Shown here piece after piece: positions 35,089 to 63,488 of a stretch of DNA of 64,000 nucleotides (its first letter is position 1; the number at the start of each line of letters is the position of its first letter). The notes below the pieces were generated by a model. That model saw only the letters and a program-made list of their open reading frames with translations, had not been told where the DNA came from and ran no database searches. The translations under genes and the position numbers were made by a program. This DNA comes from Darksidea phi (taxonomy: Eukaryota; Ascomycota; Dothideomycetes; Pleosporales; Lentitheciaceae): assembly GCA_030770425.1 (NCBI GenBank), contig JASJFT010000017.1:124001-188000 (forward strand), in the 5' to 3' direction.

Positions 35089-35244
35089 TGGACTTGCTGG
35101 GAATCGAACCTAAGCCTAGTTAGTACTGGTAATTTCGTTACCCAGCCGAAAGAGTTGGCTTACCCAGGACCTTTCCCATCGTATTGCAGGTGGCACAGCA
35201 CGCTTCAATGCTAAGGGAAAATTATACCACTAAACCACAAGCCC
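35089..35244 (-). tRNA. tRNA-Ala(AGC): tRNA-Ala (AGC) gene with two intervening sequences
   Basis: Minus strand, position 1 at 35244. Acceptor GGGCTTG pairs with CAAGTCC and includes the G3:U70 pair that identifies tRNA-Ala; discriminator A at 35089. The A box TGGTTTAGTGG is intact. Anticodon arm TTCCC-TTAGCAT-GGGAA carries AGC. A 30-nt intron (35208-35179) sits after position 37, the normal eukaryotic site. A second insertion of 54 nt (35163-35110) lies in the T-arm. Removing both gives a 72-nt tRNA with T-arm CTGGG-TTCGATT-CCCAG. A T-rich Pol III-type terminator follows. The second insertion begins GTAAGC and ends TTAG with TACTAAC near its end. Either a functional gene with two introns or a damaged copy; the exact restoration of the T-arm favours the first. 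Confidence 0.85.
35110..35163 (-). other. Spliceosomal-type intervening sequence in tRNA-Ala T-arm
   Basis: 54 nt, donor GTAAGC, branch-like TACTAAC 9 nt before the 3' end, acceptor TTAG. Its first and last parts (TAAGCC and GGCTTA) can pair, and GGTAA-CGAAA-TTACC forms an inner hairpin. Size and signals match the protein-gene introns of this window. Confidence 0.7.
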
Positions 35245-36578
35245 CGTATTGACAATTGGTAGTTTCGTTGGGACTAAAAATTTATATTGAATGATTTCCC
35301 GTACGAATTGGGTGAAATTTGATAGGTTCGTACAAGATGGCGTACTAGCAGGTTAGCACCGAACGCTAAATAGCCTAAGAAATATGTGCAAGCTAAAACG
35401 CGATAAAATTCTCAAGCGAACATTGATATCTAGCGTGCCTGGGGGGCGGGTAGAGGGTTTCGGGTACAACGCGATAGCCTTGGCGCAATGCACGCATGAC
35501 GACATAAATGCTGCGATATCTATGGCAGATTCCGAGCTAATTCGGGGGTTTGGGGTTGTGGCAAGGGCGAAATTGACTCCGCTGTCCTGTACATGATCAG
35601 CCAAAGTTTGGGATCGCATCTAAACATCCCTCAAATAGCCTGGAGACTGTGCGCATTAGAACTACGAAAGGAGCTAATCAAATTCAGTGTCGGACGGGTG
35701 CATCTAATGAACACCGCACCGAGATGACTACGTGAGCTCGACATTCAGCCGAGCGGTGGCCGATGTCATGTGGGATTACTTCGCTATCGAAAGCAAAGAA
35801 TTCCTAATTGTGGGATAGAGAAAAGATTTGTTTCAAGCTATCTATCAGCGTAACAATTGCTTCCCTACTGGTCCCCTGAAACTGACCACTTCCCAACCTA
35901 TCTCCCTCGATATCTTCCATGACCAAGTCCGACAATAGAGGCTCCAGGGATATTGGAGGCTTCATCTAACAGGATGAGGCTTCCAGAGTCCCCGTGCAAG
36001 AACTGCGGAACCCCCTCCACGCCTAAGAGGGCGTGACAGAAAACCTTAACTTCCCACCTTTTTCTCACCTTTATCTGCTGGTTCGTTGGCGTCTTTGGCG
36101 AGGGGAAAGGACGCCCATGGCGATCTTGGATGCGGATTACTGAGTCTATGGCGCTAACAGTACCTCTCGTCCAGCCTGATGTCCTTGCTCATTTCGTGGC
36201 CTTGTAGTTCTGAGGCGCAAAAATTGTGCAGTTTTGGGTGATCTCATTTTGGTTGCGGATATAGTGGGCAGTTGAGGGTACATCTCGGAGGCGATAAGGA
36301 ATAGATTTTGACTGATCTACCTGAATCAAACAGCAGACAAGTACCCAGACATTGCATTCGTTTACCCCAAGTGGTGGGTTCTTGGAAGTTTGAAATCCAG
36401 AAGCTGCGTAGATACCGCCAACTTAACAATTAAGTCTTCTGCTATTTTAAGCCGTTACTCTGAGGACTGTTCCTTAAGGAATGCATACTTTGTACGATCT
36501 TTTGCCATTTTGCAGCTGGGATCGTCCTCGGTGAGGCATGCGAGCTTCTGAGAGGGGTCTCCGTGCTTCTTCCTTTCT
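35245..36578. other. AT-rich intergenic, no gene recognised
   Basis: No coding frame with a domain; frames at 35353-35619 and 35384-35596 overlap on opposite strands without features. Possibly more decayed sequence like the adjoining pseudogene. Confidence 0.4.
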
Positions 36579-37262
36579 TCATATAATTGCTGTTATGCTT
36601 TGAACTGTAACCTCGTGGTCACGATCAGAAGGGCTGACCATGGTCCCATATGGCTGCCCTAAACCGGAATGAAATGGCCCAGACATAGAGCCTTGGGCTG
36701 TGAAAGCATCGACAAAGATATTTCGGTTGCCGAGACCTAGTTCATGAACTGAAGAAACCCTCTGGAGCTTGATCCTACCGCCCAAAGTTCCAGTGTTGGT
36801 AGCTCCAGATGCTGCGAATGAAAAGCCCATCTTGATAGTGTTTTCGTAGGGGCTGTTCATGATAGCGCCATTAGCTTCAGTACGAGTCAGAAGATTTACG
36901 ACTTTAAGCTAAAGAAGCACGATGCCGACCTCTGGATTTTTGGCTTGCAGTAGTTGGTAGAAGGCAGGGAGTTGTATCCACCAGGCATCGTTTTTGGCAT
37001 CCTATGCGCTTATAATAACTGTTAGTTGCATACCGCGCGATGGGGATTCCCGGTAGAAGACATCGATTCCCACCCAGTTGTGGTTCTCGATTGTAGCAAG
37101 AAAGTCATGAAGGACATTGTTCCAGCCCTCAACGAGATCGCGATCAGTTGATAAGACAGGCGAGGTTCGAAGCCTCCTATAGAATAGTCGCTAACCGATC
37201 AGTTCAATGGTCCAACAGATTCTCGACTGAACCAAACTTAAGCGGATCTCCTTGACTGCCAT
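36579..37262 (-). pseudogene. Decayed gene with three in-frame TAG stops, family unknown
   Basis: A single minus-strand frame can be read from ATG at 37262 to the stop at 36579, interrupted only by TAG at 37193-37191, 37004-37002 and 36911-36909. Between the stops the sequence is clearly protein-like, for example GWNNVLHDFLATIENHNWVG, then MQLTVIISA(stop)DAKNDAWW and PEVGIVLL. A Gly/Ser/Thr-rich C-terminus follows. All three interruptions are TAG, as expected from C-to-T or G-to-A changes of CAG or TGG codons, the change made by repeat-induced point mutation. I do not know the family. It lies in the gene-poor AT-rich tract. Confidence 0.55.
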
Positions 37263-38412
37263 GACCCATTGATCTTTGGCAACTATACTCGTAGGTAGAG
37301 ATGAGCACAAGAGTAAGGTAGCGATCATCAGCATCTACTCCGTGATTTGTACGGTACGCGAAGAGTAGACCACATTGGCGAATCTGATATCTTGATACTA
37401 CGTCCTGGTATTCCTTTTGTGATGGTCGAAGTTAGGAACATATGTGTCCGTGTCTGGGTCTGGGCGTCTTCTCAGTTCGACTGGGAGGATGAGTTTTCCC
37501 ATCTTCATTGGAGCGGGCTGAAGGATACCTTGAGGCCAGGACAGTGGTTAAGGTGTGACGTCGTTCTGCAGAGTGGCGTTAAGACAGCGCCTGGGGCTTT
37601 AGCGAGCGAGGCTCGGCTCGTGGTAACCCGAAACTACAAAACACCCGATCCGTACATCATTAGCATCAAAGGCGCATCCCATCGTGCCTACTGCCCCGTT
37701 GCCCCTTTGCCCCTTGGGGTATCCTTGTGCTGTTAATCTGGCGGTGAAGCCGTTGCCTTCGTCTAGCTGCCTACCTGCTGAATTACCTTTGGATGCTAAC
37801 GCCGTGTACACCATGCATAACCAACGATGAAAGCTCATTCAAGTACTAATAGCTCTACCAGGCTTGACTTTATCACCATGCTACGCCGCCCGCACGCTTT
37901 TGCAGATAACTCGACTCCCGACAGATACGGACGCCGGAAGCCGTGTGAAATTCCTCGAGCGACTTCGGCACTTTTCTCCTGCCAATCATATCGCTTCACG
38001 ATCGATACACGCATTTCGAGACGCGCCCGGGAAACGCTCCAGAAGGGCGAGTGGTTGCTTCTGGAGCCGAGTGACTGCTTTGGGAGCCTTTTGGCTTTGG
38101 AGCTTTCCAGGACAAGACCGAACACGTACCCGTCACGGCCATACTTCTATCATTGATGTCTCTAGCTAGCGAAGGCGCGATACGTGACCCAGCTCCCGCC
38201 GCAACGAACAGTCGCCTGCCCCGTCGTTTACCCGGTTCGGGTGCGGTGCAGCATCTCTAGCGGCGCTTCCCTTGGCAACAGCTTGTGCGCTGATGTTGCT
38301 CTGCGGGTTGTCTTTGGTCTTGCCACCCGCACATCGCTCACATCGCTCACATCGTCCAAACTGTCACGCTACGATTTGTTCAGATACACTTTATTCCGAT
38401 CCTCATGCGTGC
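37263..38412. other. Intergenic upstream of Zn2Cys6 gene
   Basis: Holds the promoter and leader of the Zn2Cys6 gene. A short 9-bp tandem (CACATCGCT repeated) lies near 38331-38352. The 129-codon plus frame at 37347-37736 has no recognisable domain. Confidence 0.4.
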
Positions 38413-41080
38413 ATGTCTTATCAAGCTCCACAGCCCCCCGAATCGGACCGTCCGCCCAGGGTGCCCATTCCGCGCCTTGAGAGACGCGCAGGCACCGAAG
38501 CAGCGCCCAGTCCACCCCGATCCGGCAACATACACCGGGTCTCACGCGCATGTGTGGCGTGCCGAAGGCGCAAAGTGAGATGTGATGGAGGACGGCCGCA
38601 ATGCCAGAACTGTCTAGACAAGGACAAGCCCTGTGTCTACATGCAAAGTCGCAGACACCGTCTCAAAACGTCCGCCACCTCTTGCTCGTCCACCAGAAAT
38701 CTAACAACTGCTAAACGAAGCAGGGCTACAGAGCAGAATCAGGAAATAATCAGTTTCCTAGAAGATCTCAAACACTCGGTCACAGAGAATGTGAAACAGC
38801 AGATAGACAACTTGTTGGACCGAGTACGCCAAGGCTCTGGTACTGTAGTTACTGCGCATGCCATCTTCTAACTAGTCGCAGGTTACCGGCGACGTTTCCG
38901 ATGCCGTTTCGTCGTTGGCACTGCACCGATCCCCCGAATCTGACGACCTGCAAGGGGAAGACAATGTGTCCGCTGAAGTTGGCTCCAACGGCGATTTAGA
39001 TAGTGTGGACGAAGACAGTCGAGCGACTGGATTCATTGGAAAGAGCTCCGAGCTTCAATGGCTGCGGCGTTTACAAGTCCAGGTGGATCGTCAGGAAGAC
39101 GCGTCGACTGAAGTCGAAGGCCCCTATGGACCTCCCGGCGACAAACCCGACGCTGCATTCCAGCGCATGGAGGCCTCGAAAAGGCGTCAGGAGCAAAACC
39201 CTGGTGCACGCGTCAAAGCCAGTACGTCGTCCTTCTACTTGGATAATGGTGACATAGATATCAATTACACCGTCGATCCGTACGCGCTGCCGCCGCTGTC
39301 GACTGCTCAGAAGCTCTTCAACAGCTACATGGACACCGTTCAGGATTCGTTCCCATTACTCCCGAGAGTGTCTTTCACGGAGAATTTTCACGCGTATTAC
39401 GCATCCGTGACGCAGGGCACACCTTTTGCAGTACCCAACATGTGGCTTGCAATCTTGAATCTCGTATTCGCTATCGGAGCGAAGTATTCGCATTTAGCAG
39501 AAGCAGATTGGCGAGCGGACGATGGCGATCATCTTGTCTACCAATCGCGTGCCCACATCTTGGGACTGTACGGAAGTTCTCTGGTCTTTAATCCAGACCT
39601 CATGTTGATCCAGGTCACTGCACTTTATGCCTTTTACTTGATGACTATGGGGCGCGTGAACAGGTAACTTGAGTCCCACAGGTTTGTTCCCACTTGCTGA
39701 TGCCGCTCTGTGCAGGGCCTGGGTCGTCGTCGGTACCGCACTTCGTTGTGCTCTGGCTCTTGGACTACACATTCGAAACGAAGACCGAACCGCTACCATA
39801 GCCTGGAAAGAAACCTTGCTGCATATATGGTGGGGTCTATACTCTCTGGAAGGGCTTCTTGGCACAATGGTCGGGAGACCAAGCTTTATCATGGAAGATT
39901 TTTGCTCAGCGCCATTACCACTACCGTTGGCGACGGAGCACTTGTTTGACGAGACATTGGTGTATCAGTTCCATGAGCGATACAGAGCTACCAGTCTTTC
40001 CCAAAGCTCTTCTGGGCCAAGCTCAACAACGTCAGAGCCTTCGAATGCCGGCTCATACTTGAAAAGCAGGGTACAGATCGGCATGATCACGCAAAGAGCT
40101 ATCAATGACCTGTATTCTGCCAAAGTAATCATCAAGTCCTGGAAGCATGTGCAACAGACAATGTCTGCATTGTGCGATCAACTCGAAGCTTGGTTGGCTT
40201 CCCTTCCATCCGGCCTCAATTTCACTAAGTCGGATGCTGGTACCAGTTTCCGACGTGAACGTCTAATCCTCGAAATGCATTATATTGGGACAAAGATTCT
40301 TATTACTCGTCCTTGCCTGTGTAGACTCGACAGCCGCATTGCGAACCAAACCAAAGCTTCGGACAACTTCAACAGACAGACGGCTCAGACTTGCGTCAAC
40401 GCTGCAAAGACTATGGCGGACCTGCATCACGCCGATGCATGCTACCTATATCAGACTGGACCGTGGTGGTCCTTAGTCCACAATCTCATGCAAGCTCTCA
40501 TAGTTCTGCTACTTGAGATGTCCTATGGTACGGTCCACTTCTCTCAAAACGGGGAAGAAATCTTGCCCTCCGCGAAGACGCTTATCCGTTCTTTGAGAAC
40601 AATGAAAAAGAACAACCAGATTGCGGAGCGTGCTTATACTACGGCTTTCGGAATACTGCGAAGGCTGGCTCCACGTATCAATGCAGATATATCCGATCTT
40701 CTGGGAGAGGACGTTGCTAGCTCCGGGGTGACAACGAGGCCTAATACTGAGGATGGTTTTACGACCGGCGAGTATGTCCAAAGATTCTCGTTCCCAGCTG
40801 GTGAAGATAACCAGCAACTTAGGGGACAAGAAATGTTTGTTGGGGGGGGGGGGTTCTATGACTTCCAATCAGACCACACGTCAATGTTCGCATTTCCGTC
40901 AGGAGCAACCCAACAAGGTTGATCGCTCCTAGTGTTTATTGGCTGACGCGATCTAGCCCTCTATTCGGCAGTTCCTTTACGACTGCCTACGACGAGCACA
41001 ATCCCGTTACCCGCAGTGGCGCCTTTTCAAGCACAGATGTAGCCATGCCGGATATTCTACCTGAGGGCCCTTCGTCCTAG
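38413..41080 (+). CDS. Zn2Cys6 fungal transcription factor
   Basis: Exons 38413-38823, 38882-39663 and 39716-40897, and probably 40957-41080. The GAL4-type DNA-binding domain is near residue 46: CVACRRRKVRCDGGRPQCQN and then CLDKDKPC, spacing C-x2-C-x6-C-x6-C-x2-C-x6-C. A linker with a short coiled coil follows. The fungal transcription-factor homology domain runs from about 250 to 600 (NMWLAILNLVFAIGAKYSH; RAWVVVGTALRCALALGLH; ETLLHIWWGLYSLEGLLGT). An additional in-frame 54-bp intron at 38670-38723 is possible. The end is uncertain: without the last intron (donor GTCAGG at 40898) the frame stops at 40922; with it, an acidic Ser-rich tail ends at 41080. A G homopolymer (about 40844-40855) is a sequencing risk. 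Targets cannot be inferred. Confidence 0.82.
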
Positions 41081-42160
41081 GACTGGTCTTCATACTCCTC
41101 ATTAATAGTAGGAAAGGTGATAATAAGTGAAACTTGCACAAAATGGTTGGTTGGTTTAACCTAGTTTTAGCTGAAAATTATTCGCCTTATATGGCCCTAG
41201 CTCCAGATTAGCACATACACAGTAGTGTTTTATGTCCCGAAGTTCTGTTCTTGTACAACTTGCTACCACATCAATTAAGCGGAGGTATGTATTCTCTAGT
41301 AGACATGCCGAACTGCTACCGCAATAGAATCGGGGGAGGTGTAAAGTAAGTAGCAACACCATGCAAGCCTAGGCAGCTTTGATTGGGGACCTGAATTAAA
41401 AGGTTGGGTTGCCAGCCTGGAACTAACGGGTGGTTGCGTTTCTCTTCCAAGCTTTGCCGGCCATGCAATTTTGCGTACGGGACTAGGTGTGGATCATATA
41501 GGCAGGTGCTATCTCTTTAACACCCTTTTTGCTAGCATAGAGAGATATACTATGTTTACAACATTTAAAAAGTGGGGGGGGGGAATGGAACAATTGGATA
41601 GGCGGGGACGAAGCATTGAGGCCAGAAACGAGCTTCAAAAGATTGAATATCCCAATCTGTCACATGTGGGTGGTCGTAAATTCATGCTCTGAAGGTAGAA
41701 CCATTACATTGCGCTGGTATGTGAGGAGAACTCGTGTTTGATGTCGTTTGGCAGTTCGGCGACAAGAGTAATTATTCGCCAGAAGACAAGTTAGATCGCA
41801 TTTACGAGTTGTTCTTTCTCTCGCCTTTATTTAGCGGCGTTATTCCTACTATGTTGATAGACTCCGTCTGAAGACTTTTAGTAAACGTGGTGGGGGCAAA
41901 GCTGTGTGTCATTTACGTACGGCTAATTGTCCGCCCCGTATAAGCTTCCTCTAGAAAGTGCGAGGGACATTACTTGGCAGTTGTACGATTTAGATCTAAT
42001 CTCGGCCTATGCGTACGTATGTCCTACTCCACTCTGATCGATGCACGACTTCGTCACATTCAACGCTGGCATTCTACTACAAGCACATGCACTATACTTG
42101 TATTGAATCTCGTAAAGTTGCCACTCGGTTTTTTTCCGATGAACGGTCTGAAAGAACTTT
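41081..42160. other. AT-rich intergenic, no gene recognised
   Basis: Between the Zn2Cys6 factor and the CAP59-like gene. Contains a G-run at about 41574-41582. No RNA or coding feature seen. Confidence 0.45.
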
Positions 42161-43636
42161 TCATACATGCGCCCACCCGTTGTCGCGGAGGACCTGCATT
42201 TCGTTGATAAGGCAGAGCACACCTTTCTCCTCATTTATCGTGTCTTCGTTTCTCCATCTCTGTATCCTTCGACGTACAACCCACTCTTTCCAAAAATCAG
42301 TCGTGGTCCATCGGAGTATTCGATTTTCCCATAGCCTCTGCAGCATTCGCAAGGACGACAGTGCCGCGCCGCTTGAGTGGACCGCATCGTACGCTTCCTT
42401 GCTATAGCCCACGAGTACGCTTGGATTCACGAAAATACCATGCTCAGAGAGTGGGCTATCAGTATGAATCAAACAGCATTCTGAGCCCTCAAGGTGATGT
42501 GCTGCTAACGTATCTGCGATACCACGGAATTGTAAAGGAGATGGTCCAGTAAAAAGATTGGCCGGCATCGCAACTATTGGGTCTTAGTCTGGGGACCGCT
42601 CTACAGCATCGAAGCTTACCTATTCCGTTCCAACAGCTCTTTACTGGGACTGGCCGATTCGACTTCATCGCCCGCCGCGACTCACGCGACCTGAAATAGG
42701 GCCACGTACGCGTCAGAGGTCCATGGCCTTCTGAGTCTCTCAAAGCAAAAGTGTCATAGACCCACGGCGGCTTGGAAAAGTCCATCGAGCAAGCTGCTCC
42801 GTATTGCCCTTCATTGGTGCTTAACAGCCGAAGAATATCGCCCGTCTAGTCCCAGAGGTGTTCAGCAAGCAAGTACTGCCTAAATGGAAAGGATGCGGTG
42901 ACTTACCGAAAACGCAACGTCGTTCAGGAAAAGCACCTTGTCAAAGAGTATTCCTTGTTCGGCAAGATGTTGGAGCGGCTTCAGACTCAAGTTACGGAGA
43001 TGTGCTAAATATGGTATACGTCGGAACTCCCTACGTCCTTGCGGAGTTATGATCCAACCTGTAGTTGAGTCTGCAGTCGATGCTGATAATTCATCCGAGT
43101 GTGTCCTCTCTGAGAGTGTAACATTGCGCTGTACACCGAGTCGGTCTAAACTCGCGTCAAGCTCCATCAGAGCAACCTTCGTGTTGTCCCAACTACCTAT
43201 TAGGATATCAGTACGTAGAATCTCATACTGTCTCGAACGCGTATTGCAAATGGACGCGCTAGATGACGTACTCACCGCTCTCGTACACACTAACAAAGAC
43301 GCTGTCAGGTCCCAAATGTTCGACCAAGGCTACTACAGCCTCATTCCATGCCGACCGAAGGATTGCCTCATTGTTCCAGTGTATACTTGCGATGAATATG
43401 CGTCCCAATCCCTCCGAAGCAATGTCGTACGTTTTCGGACGCTGTTTGACCTGCACAAGGAACACGTCTATGCTGTTCAATAGTACGGAGGTGATGATGA
43501 CGAAGACAAGATACCGGCGAGCGAAGACACGACGGAGACGCATGCGGACGTATCGTAGTCCTTGTGAGAACGGTGTGCGTAAATGCACCATGATCGAACT
43601 AAGACTTTCGAGCAAGGTCCCGAAAAGGCGGGCCAT
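42161..43636 (-). CDS. CAP59/CMT1-type glycosyltransferase (alpha-1,3-mannosyltransferase family)
   Basis: Four exons: 43636-43276, 43196-42907, 42845-42620 and 42573-42161; 429 residues. One N-terminal membrane anchor (YLVFVIITSVLLNSIDVFLV) suggests a Golgi type II protein. Then RIFIASIHWNNEAILRSAWN, SVYESGSWDNTKVALMELD, ILFDKVLFLNDVAF and the NEGQYGAACSMDFSKPPWVY block, which hold the D-containing sites of the cryptococcal CAP59/CMT1 mannosyltransferase family. CWNGI(V)AMPANLF and HTDSPLSEHGIFVNPSVLVGY follow. In Cryptococcus such enzymes act on capsule-related glycans; the role in an ascomycete is unknown. The start is the first ATG; a frame extending to 43666 uses no ATG. Confidence 0.85.
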
Positions 43637-46100
43637 TTGGTTACCCTCGAAGCTTGATAGGTACAAAGCTGTACCGATGAGCCGCTAATAGTAGGGCACG
43701 CGCGTTAATTGTCGTTAAAATGAGCTGGATGGGCCGAACTTCGGTGAAGGCTGTGGGTTAGTAAGTAAAACATAACGGAGTCCTGCCTGTGAAATATTTA
43801 TTGTGGGAGTTCATTTCGCCTACATTCCTTTGTCCCACCCGAGTCGGCGTTGTAGCGGCAGCGCGCTCCTTTTGTCAATTGAAGAGGACAGATGTGCGCA
43901 GCCTCAGTTACACAACAGGGAGCTGCCGCATTGTTGAAGCCAGGGGGACACAGACTCTATCGAGGCGCATAAGGTGCTCGATGTACAAGGTACCACAGGT
44001 AGCTAGTAGTTACTCGAGCTGATACTGGTGAATAATTGTACCTATTTTGTCAGCATAAAGCGACTTGCTGGAGCATATCGCACTTAAACCTTGTGGTCTT
44101 AGCATCTGTCCAGATCCTGGGCTCTGGGTACGGCACGGGTTCCTATTGGTGCTCGTAGGTTATCGATTCCCGAGTAATGGGTGCGTGGTAACATATCACG
44201 ATCGACCTGTATATGATTTCAATTGGGAACAAAGTCGATTATGCCTCACTTTCATCTTCTGACACCACTCTTTTCCTCAATATTAAGCTTTTCCCCTAAT
44301 GCACCTCTTTTGGCTACTGTCTCCTTTTTCTTCTTCGTGGTAATCCTATACAACTGGCTCTGCAACTCCTTACAATCGCTCCTTATCAACTCCTCCCCCT
44401 CCAACCCGGTCTTACGCTTCGCCGCTTCCGTCAATACCAATGCAGTACGAAGCTACGCCATCACCAATGCTGAACTATGTTATCGTTCGACTGTTGTATC
44501 ACGGATATCGCGCTAAGACTGGTATAGGGAGAACATGTAGCGTTGAAAGTAGTATATAAAAGCAGAGTGCCCAGATTTGCTTATTGCGCTCCATAAATAG
44601 TTTCTTGAGCAGCGCCCATGCCGGGGTTATACTTGGGCGGCCTAGACCACCACCCTCAAACGTTTGGAAAGGGGCGGAATGCCGTTCGATGAGCCGAAGA
44701 ACCGCGGTCGAAAAGACAATGTAGGATACGAACCAGGCACAAAGCTGCGCACCACGTCCGACAATGATGCCCCATGCTATGTCAATGCCTTCGACGTGAG
44801 CAAAGGTGAAGCGTCCAAAGACGTGCCCAGAACAAACAACGCCTCAGCTCCTACCACGGTGGAGCTTTGAGGTGTATCGAACCCCACGTCGCATTTTTGG
44901 ATTTGGCTGCGAAGGCATAGTAAAAGAGAGTACATTCCCCTTGCCTGTGTAACCTCCAGGCACGGAGAATGGGGTAATCTCGAAAAGCGAAAAGCGAGGT
45001 GCAAACCTGCGAACATCTGCTTTTTCGCCAAGTGCAACTTTTTGAAAGCTGGCAAAGCGCGATGTTGCCAAAAGCGCGAGGCTGAATGATTTGCGGATGA
45101 AGTCCCTAGCCTTATGAGTGCTGTAAATCCCTCTTCTTTTCGCCATCGTAAGCTCTCTGTTGGGTTTTACTGTAAGCTGTTGGTACGGCGGCAGCATTAC
45201 TCGTGAGCCAATCTGTGCCCCCGCCCCTCCCCACTTTTTTATTATTATTATTATTATGGCGGTTGTCGTATAAATGTTTCTGTGTGAGATTTATAGTGAT
45301 ACAAATATGGGATGAGATCCTGGAACAACTATAAAGAGAGGTGTAATTCGCCTCTAGGAAGCATCCATTAGGGACCAAAGTCGGACGTTGGACAACGTCA
45401 TAAATGGATTAACCCTGAAACAAGGAAAGGTAGACATTTGGGAGTAGTACTCTGAGCATTTCAAAGCACCTTCCTCACGCTTTTGCATTCTCAACAATGT
45501 ACCAGGTGGATCATTCGTGTCAGTACGCCTTGCAAGAGCACACTTGTTCTACGTCCTTGATGTTTTGCGCCCCATAAGTAGCTTTACATTTGTGACTAGA
45601 ACCAGTACTTGGTTAGGGTGATCCATCGGAAGCAAAACGAGGCAATAGGTTTATGCTCATAAGCAAGGTGAAGGTTAGGTACTATTGCGAGGACTTCTGA
45701 TGCGAGAGAAAATAATGCTATAGATACCGACTGGTCGAAGCTTACGGCGTTCCTGGACGACTTGCCTGTATTTTCAAAATGATGATTTGTATTGGCATCC
45801 TTCGCACCTCCGCCACTACAAAGCGACGATCTTCAACATTTTGTGGAAGTAAGGACCACAACGTCATGCTAGACGCAAGCGGACATGGATTGAGAGCTAA
45901 CGTATAAACGACATGGAGACTGGAACTGCCAGGTATAACTACTGGTACCCGGAAGGTGTTGAGCCTTTGTCGATGGCGTGGAGTGCGCAGGGCGGGAGCG
46001 GTCAGCCCAGGATAGTATCCTATGCATTGCAAACATAGGGTAGACGAGGACAATTAGTAGGTCCTTACTTCTATTGCATAACGTGGTATCATCTTCAAAC
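43637..46100. other. 2.5-kb intergenic region, no gene recognised
   Basis: Contains an (ATT)n microsatellite at about 45241-45257 and several unrelated short frames. TATATAA and TATATAAAAG-like boxes near 44553-44562 hint at a promoter, but no product could be assembled downstream. Confidence 0.4.
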
Positions 46101-50949: not shown

Positions 50950-51190
50950 TTTGAGGTGTAGGCGGGCAGTTGGGTCTGATGGGCCTGTTGAGAATTTTTG
51001 GTAGGGCTGAGGTGCCCCACTGTGGGGTACAAGGGTCCGCCAAGAATGAGGTCATGGGATTGGATGTTCGACAGAGTTTCACCAAGATACGGAAAAAAGC
51101 GTGGATGTGAGATAGTGTGAACTTACAGAAGAACGGGTATCTTTCATTACCGTCTATTCAAGCATGCCTTATCCGGATGTGATCTACCCT
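50950..51190. promoter_or_regulatory. GARS promoter and 3' flank of 5-phosphatase gene
   Basis: 241 bp between the stop of the upstream minus gene (51191) and the GARS start. No distinct element recognised. Confidence 0.35.
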
Positions 51191-54205: not shown

Positions 54206-54532
54206 GACGGGAGAGGGGCAATGGTGTTTTGCTAGAATGTGTTTGAGAAAGCGACTGTCATGCCATCGCGCTGAAGGACGAGGGGCGTGAGCTGGATATA
54301 ACCAGTCATCATTCTGGCTATGTTAACGCGCTCCATGACGTGCAAATGCCGGCCAGGCCTTGAATGACGAGCGGTGGCGGTGCGTATCACGTGAAGGCGT
54401 GGCTCAAGCTCGGGATCGATAACCTGGAGCTCCCAAGCTCTTTGCACCAAGCCTTGCCGCACCACCGACCCAGCGTCGTGATCGAATTCCACACAGTCAG
54501 TCCACTGTACCTTCAGCAAGTCTTTCGCCAGG
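54206..54532. promoter_or_regulatory. Divergent promoter, 5-phosphatase/DCP1
   Basis: 327 bp between divergent start codons; no distinct motif recognised. Confidence 0.45.
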
Positions 54533-55234
54533 ATGGCCCCGAACAAAGGCAAAGCCCGCACGGCGCAGCCCGAGAACGACACAAGCGCCCCACCACAATT
54601 GCGCTCCAACGAGGAGCTCAACCTGTCCGTTATTCGTCGCCACTATCCCGAGGTAGCTGGCATCCATTATGTCGCACCCTACGCGGTACTATACGCCTAC
54701 ATGCTCGAAACATCGCAATGGGAGAAAATCGGCATGGAAGGCAGCCTTTTCGTCTGCGAGCTTGTCCCCTCCCCCATCGGCGCCGAGCGTTTTGCCGTTG
54801 TTCTCTTAAACCGACGCGGCCTTGAGAATTTTTTTATGGAGATTACCAGCCCGGAAGATATCGATTTTGGCGAATTTATCATGATGCAAAGCGACCAAGT
54901 GTACGGCCTCTGGATCTTCTCAGAACCGCTCAGCAGCACGGCCAACGTACCAGCGGAGATCCAGGAAAAATTGGAAGAGCTGGCTGCGCGAGCCAAGTCA
55001 AGTAGGGAGGCGAAAGAGCGTGGTATTGAGAGTGGGATGACGGAAGCTGAGCAGGTAGAATCCGTTCCCATGGGACGCCAAGTGTCCCTTAGAGAGCTGT
55101 TCGGACAACGACCAACGGAAGCTGCGGCAATGGTCCATACTCACAACAACTCGCACCCGCCTCAACCAGCACAGACGGACGTCCTCAACCAACTTTTCAT
55201 GAAAGCAAAACAAGACTACAATGGCTTCGGCTGA
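54533..55234 (+). CDS. DCP1: mRNA-decapping enzyme subunit Dcp1
   Basis: Activator of the Dcp2 decapping enzyme in cytoplasmic mRNA decay. Single exon, 233 residues. The EVH1-like domain covers about 25-140: NLSVIRRHYPEVAGIHYVAP, WEKIGMEGSLFVCE, RFAVVLLNRRGLENFF and a helix-rich end (VYGLWIFSEP...VPAEIQEKLEELA). These are the Dcp1 family blocks. The C-terminal 90 residues are polar and include RQVSLRELFGQ and a final LNQLFMKAKQDYNGFG, likely partner-binding linear motifs. The ATG at 54533 is the first in frame. Confidence 0.9.
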   Translation: MAPNKGKARTAQPENDTSAPPQLRSNEELNLSVIRRHYPEVAGIHYVAPYAVLYAYMLETSQWEKIGMEGSLFVCELVPSPIGAERFAVVLLNRRGLENFFMEITSPEDIDFGEFIMMQSDQVYGLWIFSEPLSSTANVPAEIQEKLEELAARAKSSREAKERGIESGMTEAEQVESVPMGRQVSLRELFGQRPTEAAAMVHTHNNSHPPQPAQTDVLNQLFMKAKQDYNGFG

Positions 55235-56381
55235 CGGTACTGCTCTAGATGTCCCAATATGTGCAGGAAATCACGACGTTTGGCGCTAGCGAAGAGGCAG
55301 TTCCGGATACGGCCAGCGAAGTGAAGGCATCGTTGCATGGCCTTACCAAGAGCACGTGGGTTCAGGAGGTGGAGACTTGTGCCCCTTATACGAAAGTCCA
55401 CCGCAAGCATGGTAAATGCGGCAGGAAGAATCACCAACCCGCCGAGGAAGGTGCCAGCCACGATTTAGACGGATTGGACTGGGCAGAGGCCCCGGATCTA
55501 TGACGGGTTAGGCTCCAGGGGTTCTCTAGATTGGTTCAGCTTGTATGGAACTGAGTGATCCTTTAAATCTTACGAGAGTCCCCGTACTCGGTAACACGCT
55601 CAAGGCCTACTAATACTCCTAAAAGACTGGACTACCCTTTGACTGTGCCTTCAAACTAAATTTGAACCGGAAAGCGTCGGAGTCAGTTTAGTGCGGGGGT
55701 AGGCACTTCAATTTTTATGACAGTTTCGTCCCTGATGAACAGTGGCCCGCTTGACCGGTGTGACCACAGCCAACTCTGATGGGTGGGAGGGCCGGCGACC
55801 CTCCTGATGAGTTCTACGGGAGCACAGATGGTCGAATCTTCAGTTCCCGCATGGTTTCCTAGCGATTGATGGTCCGCCTGCGACAGATACCGTTGGTTGA
55901 GAAAGAATATGCGAGACGCTGATCTCGATGTATAGTGACACGAGCGCCCTTTGATCAAGTTTACGGAGGCAGAAATACAGGAAATATCAATTCTACGATA
56001 GCTTTACCTTCGACATGTAGTGATGCACTTGACAGACATGTTTGCAATCGAGTATAGCGGACCAGAGTGCGATGGTCCTCTGAATTATCCTACATGGAAA
56101 ATTGTACGATTTGCTGGAGGTTTGTGGATGGCGACGTTTTATTTCTCCCACGATGCGAAGTTTTTCTGTTCTCGCTAACGGCAGACAATGTGTGATAGAC
56201 GCTTCGGTCGTGTTGGGTTAGAATGAGAGCACTCCGGATACGTTTCGAAAAAGAGATGTCCTTGAACTCTGAACTTTGAATATCCGTGACAGTGTCTCTA
56301 ACGACTATGTGATATACATGATGTACAATGCTTCCACACCCTAACAACCTTTGCCACAACTTCCCAACCGCATCACTCCGA
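55235..56381. other. Intergenic between DCP1 and mS33 3' ends
   Basis: About 1.1 kb, no domain-bearing frame, RNA or repeat recognised. Confidence 0.45.
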
Positions 56382-56806
56382 TCACCTCTTCTTGTTGAAC
56401 TTCTTCGATTCTGTGCAACTATCAGTATCGCCTTTTCAGTCTCCTCCAGACATTCAAATAGATTCTCACCAGCAGCAGTCCTCTTCTTCTTCGGTGCCCC
56501 CTTCCCTCTTGACTTGGCAACATTCAAATGCTCCAGCCAATCTTCTTCCTCCTCGTCTATGACCTCAAATTCCGGGTAGAGTCTGCGCAGCTGTGATATG
56601 GTACCTATGCGCGGTGGATAGTAGGAAGCGACCGAGGGGCCTTTAAGGCGTTGGTGGAGAATGCGGCTGCCGACTCGGATGCGCTCCGGATTGTAGGTTG
56701 TGTTGAACACGCGGCATTGGACCTAACAAAGTTAGAGAGCGGTGATGGAGAATCAGAGATGGCGCACCCTCATGAGGTCTAATACTCGTGCGCGTGGGAC
56801 TGCCAT
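56382..56806 (-). CDS. RSM27: Mitochondrial small-subunit ribosomal protein mS33 (Rsm27/MRPS33)
   Basis: Component of the mitochondrial ribosome small subunit. Exons 56806-56768, 56722-56470 and 56410-56382; 106 residues. Exon 1 MAVPRARVLDLMR joins VQCRVFNTTYNPERIRVGSR. ILHQRLKGPSVASYYPPR, ISQLRRLYPEFEVIDEEEEDW and a basic end AAESKKFNKKR follow. The N-P-x-R-x-R-x-G-x-x-x-L-x-x-x-L-x-G-P block is the family hallmark. The long frame running on past the second exon, to 56090, is intron read-through and is not used. Confidence 0.92.
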
Positions 56807-56982
56807 TGTGAGCACAATGAGTATGGAATCTGAGGAGCCGCGGAGGTGCATTAGGTCTGCATGGCTTGGCGCTCCAATCCAAATTAGGAATAGAAGCCTT
56901 GGTCAGAGTCACTTTTTGTAACTTCACATCCACAACCATTACTGCTCTGCATCAGCACCGCCAAAAGCCATATTTCTACGCC

Positions 56983-58452
56983 ATGTATCAGAGTAGTCAG
57001 AAACGTGGCGGAACATCCAGTCACTACGAGAATGACCGCATCAAGAGGCAGCGCCCCAATAACCCCCAAAGCTCCAACTTTACCTCACAGAGTCGCGGTG
57101 AAAATCACCAGAATGGCCACGGCCTACGACCACAACAGGGCCCTCAAAAGTTTAGAAACAAGGACAATCCAGTCTTGGACCATATCGACAGGCTGCCAGC
57201 ACCCAACAAATGCGAGCCTTGCAAGCTGGCTGCTGCGGAGATGCAGACGGGCATGATCGCGCTGCTGGACAAGCTTGAGGCTGACGAGCTGACACCAGAG
57301 GGCGACAGAGAGGTACTGCATCACGCACGCGAGCTTCGGCGACTGCTATCAGCTCGGGCTAGCAACACGCAGTTCTCCCAGGCGAAGAAAGCGCTAGACG
57401 AAAAACGACCGCCGAAGGATAAATACGTGTCCGTGCCCGCATATATCGAGCAGAAACTGAAGCAAGTAAAGGATCTCCCAAAGCTTCCACACATCACAGA
57501 ACCATATCTGCAGGAGGCTGTCTTCACGCACATCTCATCCCACGGCCTGAATCGCATCAAGGGCGTGGACGATACCGACAGAATATCGTACGAGCGCTTG
57601 GAGTTCCTGGGTGATGCATACATCGAGCTCATCTCATCTCGTCTCATTTACAGTCGCTTGCCGCACGTTGACGTACCTCAACAATCATACTTCCGAGAGC
57701 AGCTCGTTAAGAACGAAACGCTGGGCCAGTTCTCTAACGCATACGGACTACCCGACCGTCTCAAGCACGGCGGACACATCGGCGATTCAAAAGCCTGGAC
57801 GAAAGTTATCGCCGACGTATTCGAAGCCTACGTCGCCGCAGTCATCCTCTCAGACCCCGAAAATGGGTTTCAGATTGCCGAGAAGTGGCTCACCGAGCTT
57901 TGGGCACCGCAGTTCATTGATTTCAAGGAGAAAGTCATCGAAAACCCGCAAGCGAAAGATGAGCTTTCGCGCTTGGTTGCTTGCAAAGGTGTCGTGCTCC
58001 ACTATCGCGAGGAGCGGGGTATGGTGCACGAGAACGGCGTTCAGAAATACTTTATTGGGGTGTACCTGACTGGGTGGGGTTACGAGAATGAGTGGCTCGG
58101 CAGTGGAGAGGGTCGGAACAAGGGGCAGGCTGGCGTGTATGCGGCTATGGATGCGATACAGCGGAATAATATGGTGCTAAAGACGGCTACTCGGAAGAAG
58201 CAGGAGCTAGCTCAGCGGAGAAAAGAAGAAGAGGAGCGGAAAGAGACGGAAGAGGAGGTAGACGATGCGATTGACAAAATCAGGGAGTCCAAGGCCACAG
58301 ATGAAGGCACTAGTGATGGCTCGAAGCCGCATGAGGCTCAATCGACCAGCAGCTCTTGGCTTGAGAAAGAAAGAAAGAAGAAAGAGAAAAGAGAGAGACG
58401 AGAAAAGAAAGAGAGGAAACCTAAGGAGGCATCGAACAGTGCCAGCTGTTGA
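56983..58452 (+). CDS. Ribonuclease III (Rnt1/Pac1-like double-stranded RNA endonuclease)
   Basis: Nuclear RNase III enzymes process pre-rRNA, snRNAs and snoRNAs. Single exon, 489 residues from ATG 56983; an in-frame ATG-less extension reaches 56866, only 60 bp from the mS33 start. RNase III domain (about 165-315) with the signature ERLEFLGDAYIEL (204-216) and the second acidic pair in VFEAYVAAVI (D278, E281 region). A double-stranded RNA-binding domain follows (about 325-415: DELSRLVACKGVVLHYREER...YFIGVYLTGWGYENE...GRNKGQAGVYAAMDAI). The C-terminal 75 residues are Lys/Glu/Arg-rich coiled coil ending KERKPKEASNSASC. A mitochondrial-ribosome mL44-type assignment is less likely because the catalytic motif is intact. 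Confidence 0.88.
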   Translation: MYQSSQKRGGTSSHYENDRIKRQRPNNPQSSNFTSQSRGENHQNGHGLRPQQGPQKFRNKDNPVLDHIDRLPAPNKCEPCKLAAAEMQTGMIALLDKLEADELTPEGDREVLHHARELRRLLSARASNTQFSQAKKALDEKRPPKDKYVSVPAYIEQKLKQVKDLPKLPHITEPYLQEAVFTHISSHGLNRIKGVDDTDRISYERLEFLGDAYIELISSRLIYSRLPHVDVPQQSYFREQLVKNETLGQFSNAYGLPDRLKHGGHIGDSKAWTKVIADVFEAYVAAVILSDPENGFQIAEKWLTELWAPQFIDFKEKVIENPQAKDELSRLVACKGVVLHYREERGMVHENGVQKYFIGVYLTGWGYENEWLGSGEGRNKGQAGVYAAMDAIQRNNMVLKTATRKKQELAQRRKEEEERKETEEEVDDAIDKIRESKATDEGTSDGSKPHEAQSTSSSWLEKERKKKEKRERREKKERKPKEASNSASC

Positions 58453-59349
58453 GTTGAAAGGCCTTTTCCCACAGTATCGTTCGTGGAACAATAATCTCGT
58501 ACACACGATAAATATGGTGCACGTACGAGCATTACTTATACTATACATCCATCAAACTCGCAGAGAGCTTTCGCCCTTAAAGGGAGGAATATCGCATATA
58601 AACGGCACCATTCTTGGTAGGTAGCAAAAAGCATGCAATGACCGTTGCTCATCTTAATCCGTGAGTATGATATACATTAGACGTGCACCGCTTCAATATC
58701 GGCTTGGAGATCGTGCCAGACGTATAGGTAAATATAGGAACTTGTGAGCTTAGTTTCCTGTGTTTGATATCCATGTTTAAGCCGATTAAATGCACATGGC
58801 GAGGATCATTGGTCAATCACTCGCTAGAAAGTTTCAGCTACAAGACGAAGACACCTCCGTTCTACTCGCTAAAAACGGAGTCTAGGCTTAGATGAAGCGT
58901 AGACATAACGATCGCATTCCTCCAACCGACGTCCACTATCGGACGGTCCACAACACATTCTACAGAGTATCGCCTCTCCAGGTGCAACACGCTCAGCACC
59001 AGTACGTCTCACCGTGCAACTTGTTTGGAATCGTTGCATGACGAGTGTGTTTCTTCCTCCGTCATACTTATGGATATCGCTGGTATCTCTAAGGGCGACC
59101 CGAATTTATCCACTCTATCAAGATACCAGCAGAAGCTACAGTCACGTTAGCCGCTTACTCTCTCTCGTAACAGAGAGGATGTTGAGCCTAAATATAGAAG
59201 TATGGTTGTGCTTACCTGGCAGAATGCCTCTCCTGGGCGCGCACATACCGCGGCTGACTCAATGTTTGAAATAAGTCCTCGAGTGCGTCTATCTTGTAAT
59301 GATTCGGTGACCTCTAGTTATCCTTGAATCCTGATATTATCCAGAGCAC
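58453..59349. other. Intergenic, no gene recognised
   Basis: Start of a gene-poor tract that reaches the right edge. Nothing recognisable on either strand. Confidence 0.45.
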
Positions 59350-59399
59350 CTAGTCGACAGATGGGAATATTGAACGGAACGCAGTCTGCGTTGTCGTAC

Positions 59400-60810
59400 G
59401 CATCAGAGACCTGCTTGATGTTCGTGCTGAGGAAGTCAATCTAATCGGCGCCCAGGCCCTTGGACCCTGGCATTTCGTTGCCCTCTTCCGTCTTCTCGCT
59501 ACTCTGTCCCCTGCGCGGTCCAACGCCGAACCCCTGTTCTTCCAAGTGGTCGACGCTAGCTTCGATGATGCGGTGGAGATCAAGACCGCGACCCAAAGCT
59601 TGGGCCCATCCTGGTTGGTTCTGGGTGATTGGGAAGGTATAGAAGCTCCGGGTACCAGACATTGGTTCATCGTATATGCTGTACATTGGAATGAGCATTG
59701 GGTAGATGCAGAGAAAACGAAAAAAGAAAAGAATTTATACTTACGACTGGAAGTAGTATCCATAGCCTTTGTCCCAGTGTTTCAAGCGGAAATCGTTGTT
59801 ACCAGCGATTATTTCATGTTCGTTGAACTGATCCAAAATCATTGGATAAGATTGGAGCCACATTCTCTCCGTATGCCAACTAAACTGCAATGCTAGACTG
59901 AATAGTACTCGTTCCAAGACCTCGGCTCTATCGTTTGCGTTAATGATATTTGCGTTCGATAGCGGAAGCATGTCGGTGTCGGCCCAGATGCCGCCCTCGA
60001 ACAGCGCCCCCATATCAGCCCACTAGAGTTCCCATGGATCGTATAATCGTCAAAGATCTGCTTGGTCATCTTCCAACTTTCAGAATTGTCTCCACGGGCG
60101 AAGAGAGGTATTGCAGGTATTCGTAGTTATTATCCGCATTCCGAGCTTCCCCCGTTTCCGCATAACTCTTGATGCGCCAGTGGTCGCCATGGATATATCG
60201 GGTTGCATACATATTTACGCCGCCCCAAACAGCCGCCGTGGTTGCCGCCGATGCGGCTGCTGCTGCAGCTCCCAAGAATACCAAGCACTACCAAAGGACC
60301 GCGCAGCAGAGTTATGCCAATCATAATAGGAAACAGATAACTGCATATGATCATCTGAAACACAGTGGGCTGGACTGGGAGATTTTGGCAGGCATGAACC
60401 ATTTGACCCGCAACTCCTTGTTCGCTGTCCAATGGAGCTTTCCATTTACGAACATGCGATTGATGATGCTCAAGCTTGATATGAAGTTCCTCATTGAGGT
60501 CGCGATCTGGGCAATGGCCGCAGAACCAGGTTCCGATGCTCTGTCCACGAGATCAGAGCGAGTGATAGGCGGGCACCCTTCGATGGGGCACAGGAACTCG
60601 TCTTGCACGAGATCTATGAAGATTCCGGGAAAGGTGTCACGCATTCCCTCGTGTCTCCAAACGTCCTTGCTCCAGACGCTGAAGAACTTGAATGCTTCGG
60701 TAGCGCCCCATCAGGCCTGGTCATACACATTTCCATTCCTGGTTTTGCGCCGAGCTGCTAAATGTTCTTCGAGAGAACGTTTTCGTCTGTCTGCCCGGGG
60801 CCAATGAAAA
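59400..60810 (-). pseudogene. Decayed glycosyltransferase-like gene remnant(s)
   Basis: Fragments of protein-like sequence in changing minus-strand frames. 60644-60351 has FIDLVQDEFLCPIEGCPPIT and HWTANKELRVKWFMP; 60284-60066 has a hydrophobic start and RYIHGDHWRIKSYAETGE. From about 60060 MTKQIFDDYTIHGN is followed, in another frame, by LFEGGIWADTDMLPLS, which looks like the sugar-binding DXD region of GT32/DXD glycosyltransferases. A C-terminal piece follows to about 59440. Frames shift between the pieces and splice sites that would repair all of them are not evident. It may be one broken gene or two overlapping remnants. Confidence 0.4.
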
Positions 60811-63355
60811 ATAACCGAGCGCAATGAGGGTGGTGAAGCCATTGCTAATAGTCGCCTTAGAGGTAGTTGAAAGTAGGCGCTGTGCATGGAGGACCGACAT
60901 GATTGAGACGGTTGCTGCTGAAGACAACTCCACAAGAGCATCGAGGACGTTTGGCTAAGAAGGCTTGACAGCCGGATTGAAGCTAGAGTTCCGCTTAAAA
61001 TTAAGCGTAATCGCACCCAGTTCCCATATTGAGAGACCAGGTAGGCAATGGTCTCGAAGCGACGTATTGTAACTCAGTCACAGAGGCGGTGTACCGTGTG
61101 CTTCTGGATCGTCAGAAGAGACTAAGAAAGAATAGAATTTAGATCTTCAAGGTATGTGGTTAGGTTCGATGTGATTCTGGTTGTCTAGTGACTTCAATCC
61201 TGCTATATCCTCTGACCGCGGGGACCCACGCTGGTGGGTTTCAATGGCTTGTATAGTGGTAGGGTGAGTGGGTGCAACGACAGGTCTGCGGCAATGGCAC
61301 GAGTCCTTGATAAGAGACGGAGTAAATCGCATCGATTTGGAGGGTATTGCATGTCTCGGCTCATCCTAGCCCGTGTTTGATGTTTTCTCCCTTGAGAGGG
61401 GAGTGATTAGTAGACCCCATACTAGGAGCCTATTCGGAAGAATTTGGATACTTACCGAGATATTCTTATTCTTTATCAGTAGATCCCGTTTAGCTTTAAT
61501 CTATTACTTGCCAGCACGTTCTTGCCATTGGGTATACCGCTGGCTAGATATCAATATCAAAATTTCCATTGGTGCATGGTGACTAAGGGGCTCATGATGA
61601 TGAGGATAGTGGACAGGGTCCATGCGCTTCAGCATGAGATTAGATGTTACTCTCGCCCTAATAATGGCGTCCAACACATGGCAGACCAGGAATGAAGGCT
61701 TCCCGGTCACGGTGGCCCTCGCCACCGTGACGGTGTATGGACTGGCCAAAGTCTGTGTATAATTCTTATCCTAAGCTTCCCTGAGCTAATCGTGTATGTG
61801 CAACGCACGAGGGTACAAGTTGTGTGCTCACCGTGTTGCATGTTCAAATCGGGCAAGTCCAAGGCCCAGCCAACGTGAATGTCATCGCAGCTCACGTCGA
61901 TGTTAAATGAAGCGGCTATAGTTTTAAGGTAAAGTAGGTAGATGGAAGATAGTGAGCAGATACATGGTGGTAGAAGAAAGCTCTGCGTTAACAGTGATCG
62001 TGTTAGAATACTGCACTTTCGGTTAGCCTGTTCAGAGCGTCGGCCTCATCTCCTCATGATGTTACAACGCACATCATCGCGAATCCGTTATAGTATCCAA
62101 GTGTGTTTCTTGATTCTATCAAAACGCTTGTCACTATCTGCTCATGTTAGTTCACTAAGTTTATGGAATCCGCTGACGTTCTTTTAGTGTAGATTAAAAG
62201 GCAAACCGTGGTGCACCTTACCTAGGGACCTAGCGCACGATTGCGAAAAACCATTGAACTACAAACTGGGTACCCATCTAGCTTTACTATCTGCCCTTTC
62301 CCCTAACATCTATCGAACCCCCGTTGTTGGTCATGTCAGATCGCTTTGCCCAACCTCGACTTGCGACAGCAGTTACAGTTCTAAGCACTAAGAGAAGATA
62401 GTGAGGTCCGGCCTATAATTGCTGATCCCATTCATTCCGCATTTTCAGTGAACGGAATAAGCGAATAGCAGCTTCTTCAAGCTCGTGTCACCCAAGATAC
62501 TCGGAATGTCACCGCATTTATTTCAGCCTTTATCTATCTGATAATGCCCCTCCTGCTAGCCGTACCTAACCAATATTTACCCATACCCCCAGTATATCAC
62601 ACGTCTGCTGTGCGTATCCCTGTATTAAAATCGCCTCCGCGGTCAGCATGTGAACGAAGTGGTAGTGATATACAATGAATAAGCTTGATTGTATGTCTGC
62701 TATGAGTGCGTGGTGTCGTTTATCCTAGGGAGAGTTCGAGATGATCTCGCCGAGTGTAGTAAGGGTGTTGCGCAAATACTAGCCGCATCACGAGGAAACG
62801 TTTGGTCGCGTCGGTAGGCTATCGTGTTGTACACCGTCTCCTTCATATTCTATGCTCAAGTTGCTGATACCTAACGATTGGGGCAAGCAGTTGGATTTTG
62901 CAATTTCATCGCATGTCGGAACCGAGTAATTAAAGAAATTAAAAGAGAACTTTAATAGAGTACTGGACTCATTAAGCTCATTCACTGGGAGAAGTGCAAC
63001 GTGAACCTCAGCTGTTTGCAACCTCTGTTAGATGGATAAATTTTCCTATAGAGTGGAGGACGGTATTATGTAGCAACAAATAGGCTTTTGACCACTCATG
63101 TGAGCCATACTTCCTCAGTTTATTCTATTGGCTTCAAAATATATTTATGTGCAGCCGATTGGAACAACTAACGACTCGGTTCGCCACCTTCCCTAATTAC
63201 CCCTCAAATGGTTCTGCCCCACTCCGCCCTACCCCTCAAGCTTACGTTTTAGATTACCTTTCAAACTACCATGCAAAGCCAGTTTCTCCCGGCTGGAAAA
63301 ACTAAATATGATTGATCTATGTGTTAAAAATCTTATAAATGTGAAAAACATACCA
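60811..63355. other. AT-rich intergenic, no gene recognised
   Basis: 2.5 kb without a credible gene. AT content rises towards the tRNA-Gly gene. No repeat of note. Confidence 0.45.
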
Positions 63356-63488
63356 GCATCGATAGTTTAGGGGTAGAATTGAAGCTTCCCATATTTCGAT
63401 ATCTGCTTCAGGCACGGGTTCGAGTAAGTGACACGAGTAGGACTTCAATTGGAATTAGCCTAATACTTCGAAGGTCCCGTTCGATGCA
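63356..63488 (+). tRNA. tRNA-Gly(CCC): tRNA-Gly (CCC) gene with two intervening sequences
   Basis: Acceptor GCATCGA (63356-63362) pairs with TCGATGC (63481-63487); discriminator A. The A box TAGTTTAGGGG is intact. Anticodon arm GAAGC-TTCCCAT-GCTTC, anticodon CCC, with a 12-nt intron after position 37 (63392-63403). T-stem ACGGG/CCCGT is intact, but the T-loop is interrupted after TTCGA by 50 nt (63424-63473). Removing both gives a 71-nt tRNA with loop TTCGAGT and a consensus B box GGTTCGAGTCC. In the genomic sequence that B box is split. The insertion begins GTAAGT, has CCTAAT about 10 nt before its end and ends GAAG. A TTTTT terminator lies at 63505-63509. Confidence 0.85.
63424..63473 (+). 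other. Spliceosomal-type intervening sequence in tRNA-Gly T-loop
   Basis: 50 nt, perfect donor GTAAGT, branch-like CCTAAT, acceptor AAG. A GGACTTC...GAAGGTCC hairpin spans its 3' end. It has no sequence similarity to the tRNA-Ala insertion beyond the splice-like signals. Confidence 0.7.

Follow-up and report, generated by a model that had tools for sequence, protein, structure and literature searches.

Background

Introns of nuclear transfer RNA (tRNA) genes are usually described as a single class, located at 37/38 and removed by a dedicated endonuclease, and we know of no case in which the messenger RNA (mRNA) splicing machinery acts on a tRNA. An intron of mRNA type does interrupt the U6 small nuclear RNA (snRNA) gene in Schizosaccharomyces pombe and in certain basidiomycete yeasts. 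We studied a 64-kb window of the ascomycete Darksidea phi, i.e., the whole stretch of DNA analysed (positions 124001-188000 of one contig), and searched the assembly to which it belongs (51.35 Mb, 477 contigs). The two tRNA genes read from the DNA of the window, Ala(AGC) and Gly(CCC), belong to a core set of 20 genes with an insert outside 37/38 (an ectopic insert) that starts with GT and ends with AG. Judged from their sequences, these inserts are very probably spliceosomal introns, defined by GT-AG ends and a branch site, which lie in tRNA genes transcribed by RNA polymerase III and are removed by the spliceosome. The intron class is a known one; the host genes are new and surprising.

By our comparison, the closest precedent would be the spliceosomal introns that lichen formers and other ascomycetes carry in their nuclear ribosomal DNA (rDNA; Bhattacharya et al. 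2000, cited in PMC8527467); PMC8527467 also describes how yeast removed lichen spliceosomal introns placed in its polymerase I rDNA. Like the rDNA introns, the inserts studied here appear to be spliceosomal, ectopic and located in a structural RNA gene without polymerase II transcription. In contrast to rDNA, transcribed by polymerase I, the hosts are here polymerase III tRNA genes with mature products of 71-74 nucleotides (nt), and the insert falls in or near the internal promoter. As with the U6 snRNA introns, a gene of polymerase III would be the host of a spliceosomal intron, but U6 is itself a component of the spliceosome, whereas roughly one in three of the nuclear tRNA genes read are concerned here and the U6 gene found in this fungus is uninterrupted.

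Ectopic and multiple tRNA introns occur in archaea, in the red alga Cyanidioschyzon merolae and in the nucleomorph of Guillardia theta, and PMC3978253 attributes them to the bulge-helix-bulge endonuclease. As described there, those introns also occupy non-canonical tRNA positions, sometimes several per gene; unlike them, the present inserts have spliceosomal signals and the length of mRNA introns. A search of the open-licence literature, with subscription papers mostly outside its range, returned no paper that describes nuclear tRNA genes with spliceosomal introns.

Interrupted tRNA genes in the window

The initial annotation of the window had described two tRNA genes, each with a canonical intron plus a GT-AG insert in the T-arm (54 and 50 nt), and both genes were confirmed at their places. 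Their features are the following:

35244-35089, minus strand: tRNA-Ala(AGC), whole unspliced gene; mature form 72 nt, with G3:U70
35179..35208, minus strand: canonical 37/38 intron of tRNA-Ala(AGC), 30 nt, without GT-AG ends
35110..35163, minus strand: ectopic intron of spliceosomal type in tRNA-Ala(AGC), 54 nt, at 52/53, GTAAGC...CTAAC...TTAG
35119..35123, minus strand: branch-site motif CTAAC (inside TACTAAC) of the tRNA-Ala(AGC) insert; branch A at 35120, then 10 nt
35080..35084, minus strand: T5 run, 4 nt beyond the end of tRNA-Ala(AGC); terminator of RNA polymerase III type
63356..63488, plus strand: tRNA-Gly(CCC), whole unspliced gene; mature form 71 nt
63392..63403, plus strand: canonical 37/38 intron of tRNA-Gly(CCC), 12 nt
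63424..63473, plus strand: ectopic intron of spliceosomal type in tRNA-Gly(CCC), 50 nt, in the T-loop at 58/59, GTAAGT...CTAAT...GAAG
63460..63464, plus strand: branch-site motif CTAAT of the tRNA-Gly(CCC) insert; branch A at 63463, then 10 nt
63505..63509, plus strand: T5 run, 16 nt beyond the end of tRNA-Gly(CCC); terminator of RNA polymerase III type

Without the inserts, the acceptor, anticodon and T-stem pairs of both tRNAs were all standard, in agreement with the annotation's statement that removal rebuilds the T-arm, and mature tRNA-Ala(AGC) was identical, letter by letter, to an uninterrupted paralogue at locus L047. BLAST gave no match between the two ectopic inserts at E<=0.01, and they occupied different T-arm positions (52/53 and 58/59).

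Ectopic inserts across the assembly

A search of the assembly with the Rfam tRNA family gave 59 matches at E<=10, with 63 of 1735 candidates scored. Pattern searches were carried out with five D-arm patterns, a one-mismatch D-arm pattern for Gly(GCC), Pro and Ala, and two patterns aimed at interrupted T-arms. Totals against reversed controls were 116/95, 39/47, 14/10, 30/43 and 21/17 for the five D-arm patterns and 11/1 for the one-mismatch pattern; most pattern matches are chance ones (about 100 of the 116 matches of the first pattern were listed). Places resembling tRNA were picked by eye, and the retrieved sequences were parsed by eye and with our own cloverleaf finder, which for the main gene list required GT-AG.

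This search yielded 22 nuclear tRNA genes with a GT-AG insert outside 37/38 (20 core and two doubtful) vs about 41 without one, i.e., an ectopic insert was present in roughly one in three of the tRNA genes read. The figure of about 41 is a reading of the parses, and L025, L043 and L111, whose T-arms are odd, are counted in it. An Arg-like gene (L089, poor D-arm and acceptor) and a Met-like gene (L104, shortened T-loop) were set aside as doubtful because they look decayed, with mispaired stems or a shortened T-loop; L108, which resembles L104, was left untabulated. Mitochondrial-looking hits on contigs C304, C417, C382 and C119 were excluded from the counts, and so were the tRNA-like repeats L031, L034, L036 and L058 together with L066 and L103/L108. 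The core genes and the junctions interrupted, in the numbering of our script, were:

Ala(AGC), two genes: window gene at 52/53; L035 at 58/59
Gly(CCC), two genes: window gene and L076, both at 58/59
Gly(GCC), three genes: L061, L062 and L100, all at 60/61
Pro(CGG): L063 at 58/59
Pro(TGG), two genes: L064 at 58/59; L102 at 53/54
His(GTG): L068 at 53/54
Gln(TTG): L059 at 53/54
Gln(CTG): L081 at 54/55
Glu(CTC), two genes: L083 and L084, both at 52/53
Initiator Met: L032 at 54/55
Trp(CCA): L060 at 45/46, variable loop
Elongator Met: L107 at 45/46, variable loop
Lys(TTT): L033 at 28/29, anticodon stem
Ile(AAT): L110 at 25/26

The core set thus had eight junction positions (25/26, 28/29, 45/46, 52/53, 53/54, 54/55, 58/59 and 60/61). 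Fifteen of the 20 core genes carried a canonical intron as well, and so had two introns of two kinds: the canonical ones in the same 22 genes had a fixed position at 37/38, measured 9-30 nt and showed GT-AG ends in 0 of 17 cases. With 20 core genes in one assembly, the suggestion of the initial annotation that the two window genes reflect a wider phenomenon of ectopic GT-AG introns rather than two pseudogenes is supported for this assembly, the one searched, and the wider gene set excludes a chance origin of the GT-AG inserts.

Genes for Phe, Tyr, Leu(CAA), Leu(TAG) and Glu(TTC) were not found with these patterns, which relied largely on an intact D-arm and would miss genes interrupted there; for the same reason, it is uninformative that the set contains no introns in the D-stem or D-loop. 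A concatenated DNA query for Phe, Val, Lys, Leu, Met, Glu and Arg genes gave no match, a search that must be insensitive because Val, Lys, Met and Glu genes do exist in the assembly.

Splice signals of the inserts

Core inserts were 47-66 nt long (n=20), and all 20 began with GT, ended with AG and had G at position 5. The 5' sites were GTAAGT in nine, GTGAGT in four, GTAAGC in three, and GTACGT, GTAGGT, GTATGT and GTATGA in one each; the 3' sites were TAG (9), CAG (8) and AAG (3). The branch-site motif YTRAY was present near the 3' end in 20/20 core inserts, vs a mean of 4.9 with shuffled interiors, and 20 was reached in none of 2000 shuffles. Its form CTAAY occurred in 14/20 (shuffle mean 1.6). 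The A of the nearest branch motif was followed by 9-13 nt of intron in every core insert.

Because the cloverleaf finder had required GT-AG, two checks were run to lessen this bias. When an insert of the annotated length was slid along each gene and scored for structure only, the GT-AG placement was among the 1-10 best offsets in 20/20 genes. The second check was a structure-only search that started from D-arm anchors in the loci of <2000 bases and the two window genes, allowed inserts of 35-100 nt on the 3' side of the anticodon arm, and required full acceptor and T-stem pairing while ignoring splice signals. From 62 anchors it built 33 complete tRNAs, 16 without and 17 with an insert, and in 15 of these 17 GT-AG stood at a structure-equivalent boundary. 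One of the remaining two was Trp, for which a 52-nt insert was chosen instead of 51 nt. The best parse of elongator Met differed from the annotated one (canonical intron of 10 nt, insert of 70 nt), so that structure by itself makes this gene less certain; the search could not reach Lys, Ile and L076.

For comparison we took putative mRNA introns of the window (the first 11 of 23 listed), which had been selected partly by their own splice signals. They had similar signals and lengths of 47-79 nt, vs 47-66 nt in the tRNA genes. A Pfam domain spans the exon join for three of the 11, in the Kae1/TsaD, patatin-like and transcription factor genes. Two of them are:

24853..24908, plus strand: putative mRNA intron of the Kae1/TsaD gene, 56 nt, GTGAGC...CTGAT...TAG; the TsaD domain spans the join
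16839..16888, minus strand: putative mRNA intron of the patatin-like gene, 50 nt, GTAAGT...CTAAT...TAG; the domain spans the join

These signals bear on the possibility that the inserts are ectopic introns of the archaeal or red-algal type, cut by the tRNA splicing endonuclease at sites resembling bulge-helix-bulge motifs and joined by tRNA ligase. There is precedent in archaeal tRNAs, C. merolae and the G. theta nucleomorph, where many lack a defined motif according to PMC3978253. This route is nevertheless very unlikely here: it leaves unexplained both the GT...YTRAY...AG arrangement of 20/20 core inserts and their mRNA-intron lengths, and none of the eight core junctions is 37/38, the sole place where the yeast endonuclease is described as cutting in PMC4033280. 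An endonuclease restricted in this way makes the spliceosome the natural candidate for removing the ectopic inserts. All four pairs of the expected inner helix were present in 0/20 ectopic inserts (0-3 of 4) and in 0/14 canonical introns (1-3 of 4), a count that does not discriminate, because the canonical introns tested also lack the full helix. Group I and group II introns were discarded, since no Rfam match to either class reached the gathering cut-off in the window or in 18 interrupted loci and 47-66 nt is too short for them.

Exon integrity and isotypes found only in interrupted form

The 20 core genes showed little decay. Their mature forms had one non-standard pair in the acceptor, three in the anticodon stem and one in the T-stem, with at most one D-stem mispair per gene. 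Spliced exons equalled an uninterrupted paralogue letter for letter in five of eight comparisons: the window Ala gene and L035 vs L047, initiator Met L032 vs L008, and Glu L083 and L084 vs L101. These identities fix the insert boundaries independently of the splice signals, except for sliding over repeated bases. Identical Ala exons occurred without an ectopic intron, with one at 52/53 and with one at 58/59.

In the whole assembly, the one-mismatch D-arm pattern found 11 places, corresponding to three Gly(GCC), four Ala and four Pro genes. Each Gly(GCC) gene was interrupted at 60/61 and their exons were identical, and their introns gave no mutual BLAST match at E<=0.01; no uninterrupted Gly(GCC) gene was found in the assembly by this pattern, with one mismatch allowed. 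Identical exons with diverged introns are what selection on the spliced product would predict. Under the established rules of decoding, GGC and GGU should be read by Gly(GCC), and glycine decoding would thus depend on insert removal, unless an uninterrupted gene has a divergent D-arm or lies off the assembly. The test named in the initial annotation, whether essential isotypes exist solely in interrupted form, thus came out positive for Gly(GCC), three of three in this search. Among the genes found, Gly(CCC) (2/2) and Pro(TGG) (2/2) were likewise interrupted in every copy, as were the single genes for Pro(CGG), Gln(TTG), Trp(CCA), Lys(TTT) and elongator Met with a normal T-arm, all isotypes for which the inventory is less complete than for Gly(GCC). 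We consider it fairly likely that spliceosomal introns have spread broadly through the nuclear tRNA repertoire, and that GGY decoding by Gly(GCC), and possibly UGG decoding by Trp, strictly requires the spliceosome to process polymerase III transcripts.

The same data speak to a reading of the interrupted genes as pseudogenes, i.e., decaying tRNA copies with short DNA insertions that are never removed. The mispaired stems or short T-loop in two of the 22 genes (Arg-like L089 and Met-like L104) would fit it, as would the uninterrupted copies kept by six interrupted anticodons. Exons equal to a paralogue in 5/8 comparisons, nearly fully paired core stems and the failure to find an uninterrupted Gly(GCC) in the one-mismatch genome-wide search do not, and decay would predict no splice signals; pseudogenes are thus an extremely unlikely explanation.

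At E<=0.01 there was no pairwise match among the 22 inserts except for the elongator-Met pair and one shared 12-mer. In the former, the variable-loop introns of L104 and L107 were homologous (82% over 34 nt), which implies that the insertion is older than the gene duplication. The exact 12-mer was shared by the two longest core inserts, those of L068 (His, 66 nt) and L076 (the second Gly(CCC) gene, 63 nt), which may possibly have a common source. If the inserts were recently spreading introner-like elements with splice signals, splicing would be real and a mobile element would be their common cause; the 12-mer fits this, and so does the variety of insertion sites, two of which occur in Ala(AGC) copies whose exons are identical. 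Apart from the 12-mer and the elongator-Met pair, however, the 22 inserts compared had no match to each other at E<=0.01, and we regard such elements as a very unlikely common cause.

Proposed transcription and removal of the inserts

A run of four or more T began <=25 nt downstream of 22/22 interrupted genes. Core inserts contained no T5, and TTTT was present in 1/20 where 3.8 were expected. Downstream T-runs and their scarcity within the inserts would be compatible with transcription by polymerase III. Preservation of the B box as the cause of the insertion sites was not supported (11 T-arm events vs random placement, P about 0.47), and these events are no evidence for a promoter constraint because random T-arm placement retains the B box equally well. 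In initiator Met the B box is split by the insert, which contains a perfect B box of its own.

Several observations weigh against spliceosomal introns in polymerase III genes. The 11 mRNA introns were equally poor in T-runs (1 vs 1.9 expected), so the depletion is not specific. A perfect B-box-like match was present in 12/20 unspliced core genes and one with a single mismatch in 8/20, and some of these matches were off the normal place, those of initiator Met and Gln(CTG) being inside the ectopic intron. The sole U6 gene found in the assembly, itself a polymerase III gene, was uninterrupted. The patterns aimed at spliced T-arms gave fewer matches than their reversed controls (98 vs 190 and 44 vs 66). 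As to the two checks meant to lessen the GT-AG bias, the sliding one took its insert length from the GT-AG annotation, which leaves a residual bias, and some loci in the structure-only search had originally been retrieved with splice-aimed patterns. Three of the eight paralogue comparisons were not identical: Ile (2/74 differences), His (16/71, a different His gene) and Gln(CTG) (unequal length). Finally, uninterrupted copies were also present for Ala(AGC), Glu(CTC), Gln(CTG), initiator Met, His(GTG) and Ile(AAT). Some interrupted copies could therefore be dispensable, and interruption is common rather than universal.

Spliceosomal removal still accounts best for the inserts, and we propose the following course. 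Polymerase III would transcribe the gene as far as the T-run, directed by the A and B boxes inside it. In genes with a canonical intron at 37/38, the tRNA splicing endonuclease and ligase would take this intron out. U1, the branch-site machinery and U6 would recognise the ectopic intron, the spliceosome would release it as a lariat, and its removal would restore the junction in the T-arm, the variable loop, the anticodon stem or the D-arm. Introns were probably gained repeatedly at different sites; at least the Gly(GCC) intron would be an old one, its sequences having diverged over unchanged exons. Since the inserts resemble mRNA introns, making these presumably functional tRNAs would need the mRNA splicing machinery.

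If this is true, there is a further class of nuclear tRNA intron, and tRNA supply would be coupled to pre-mRNA splicing capacity. The spliceosome would handle short, fast-folding polymerase III transcripts routinely and probably essentially. The fungus would also offer a natural system for the study of intron gain in non-coding genes, e.g., the Ala exons with no intron, one at 52/53 or one at 58/59.

Detection by standard tools and minor observations

ARAGORN with bacterial settings found no tRNA in the window, and under those settings it correctly named 0/18 uninterrupted loci, so that it is no fair yardstick. Of the two window genes Rfam recovered Ala alone (31 bits vs a cut-off of 29) and missed Gly(CCC) even in a lenient run. 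The Rfam tRNA model reached its cut-off in 4/18 interrupted vs 12/18 uninterrupted loci; with so few interrupted loci recovered, genomes of this kind can seem to lack tRNAs.

Some tRNA-like loci had unusual structures. Three elongator-Met-like loci (L103, L104 and L108) and a Thr locus (L025) had a short T-loop, GTTAATC, GTTTC or GTTAC, instead of GTTCGANTC. Their T-stems were paired, with compensated differences between copies (GCCAG/CTGGC, ATGAG/CTCAT), and they were without a B-box core; they may be decaying genes or an odd type of tRNA. At L031, L036 and L058 a tRNA-like sequence (GGAGGGATGGTCGAGTGG... or near to it) was repeated with similar flanks, perhaps as a tRNA-derived repeat. L066 was Arg-like; its anticodon loop contained a long G+C-rich insert and lacked T33.

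Elsewhere in the window, a weak match to the CPEB3 (HDV-like) ribozyme at 42339-42423 on the minus strand (18.3 bits vs a cut-off of 35) is likely due to chance. One window gene has a fungal-specific transcription factor domain, and an open reading frame of 2127 aa at 7828-14211, minus strand, has a translation that by eye reads like a copia-type retrotransposon polyprotein. Pieces of nuclear small subunit ribosomal RNA (SSU rRNA) were found when rDNA introns were sought, on a contig that is N from 1 to 5000. At L126, about 5650-6190 on the minus strand and partly N, several hundred bases are inserted into the SSU rRNA gene behind GGGCAAGTCTGGTG, at what we take to be a known group I intron place.

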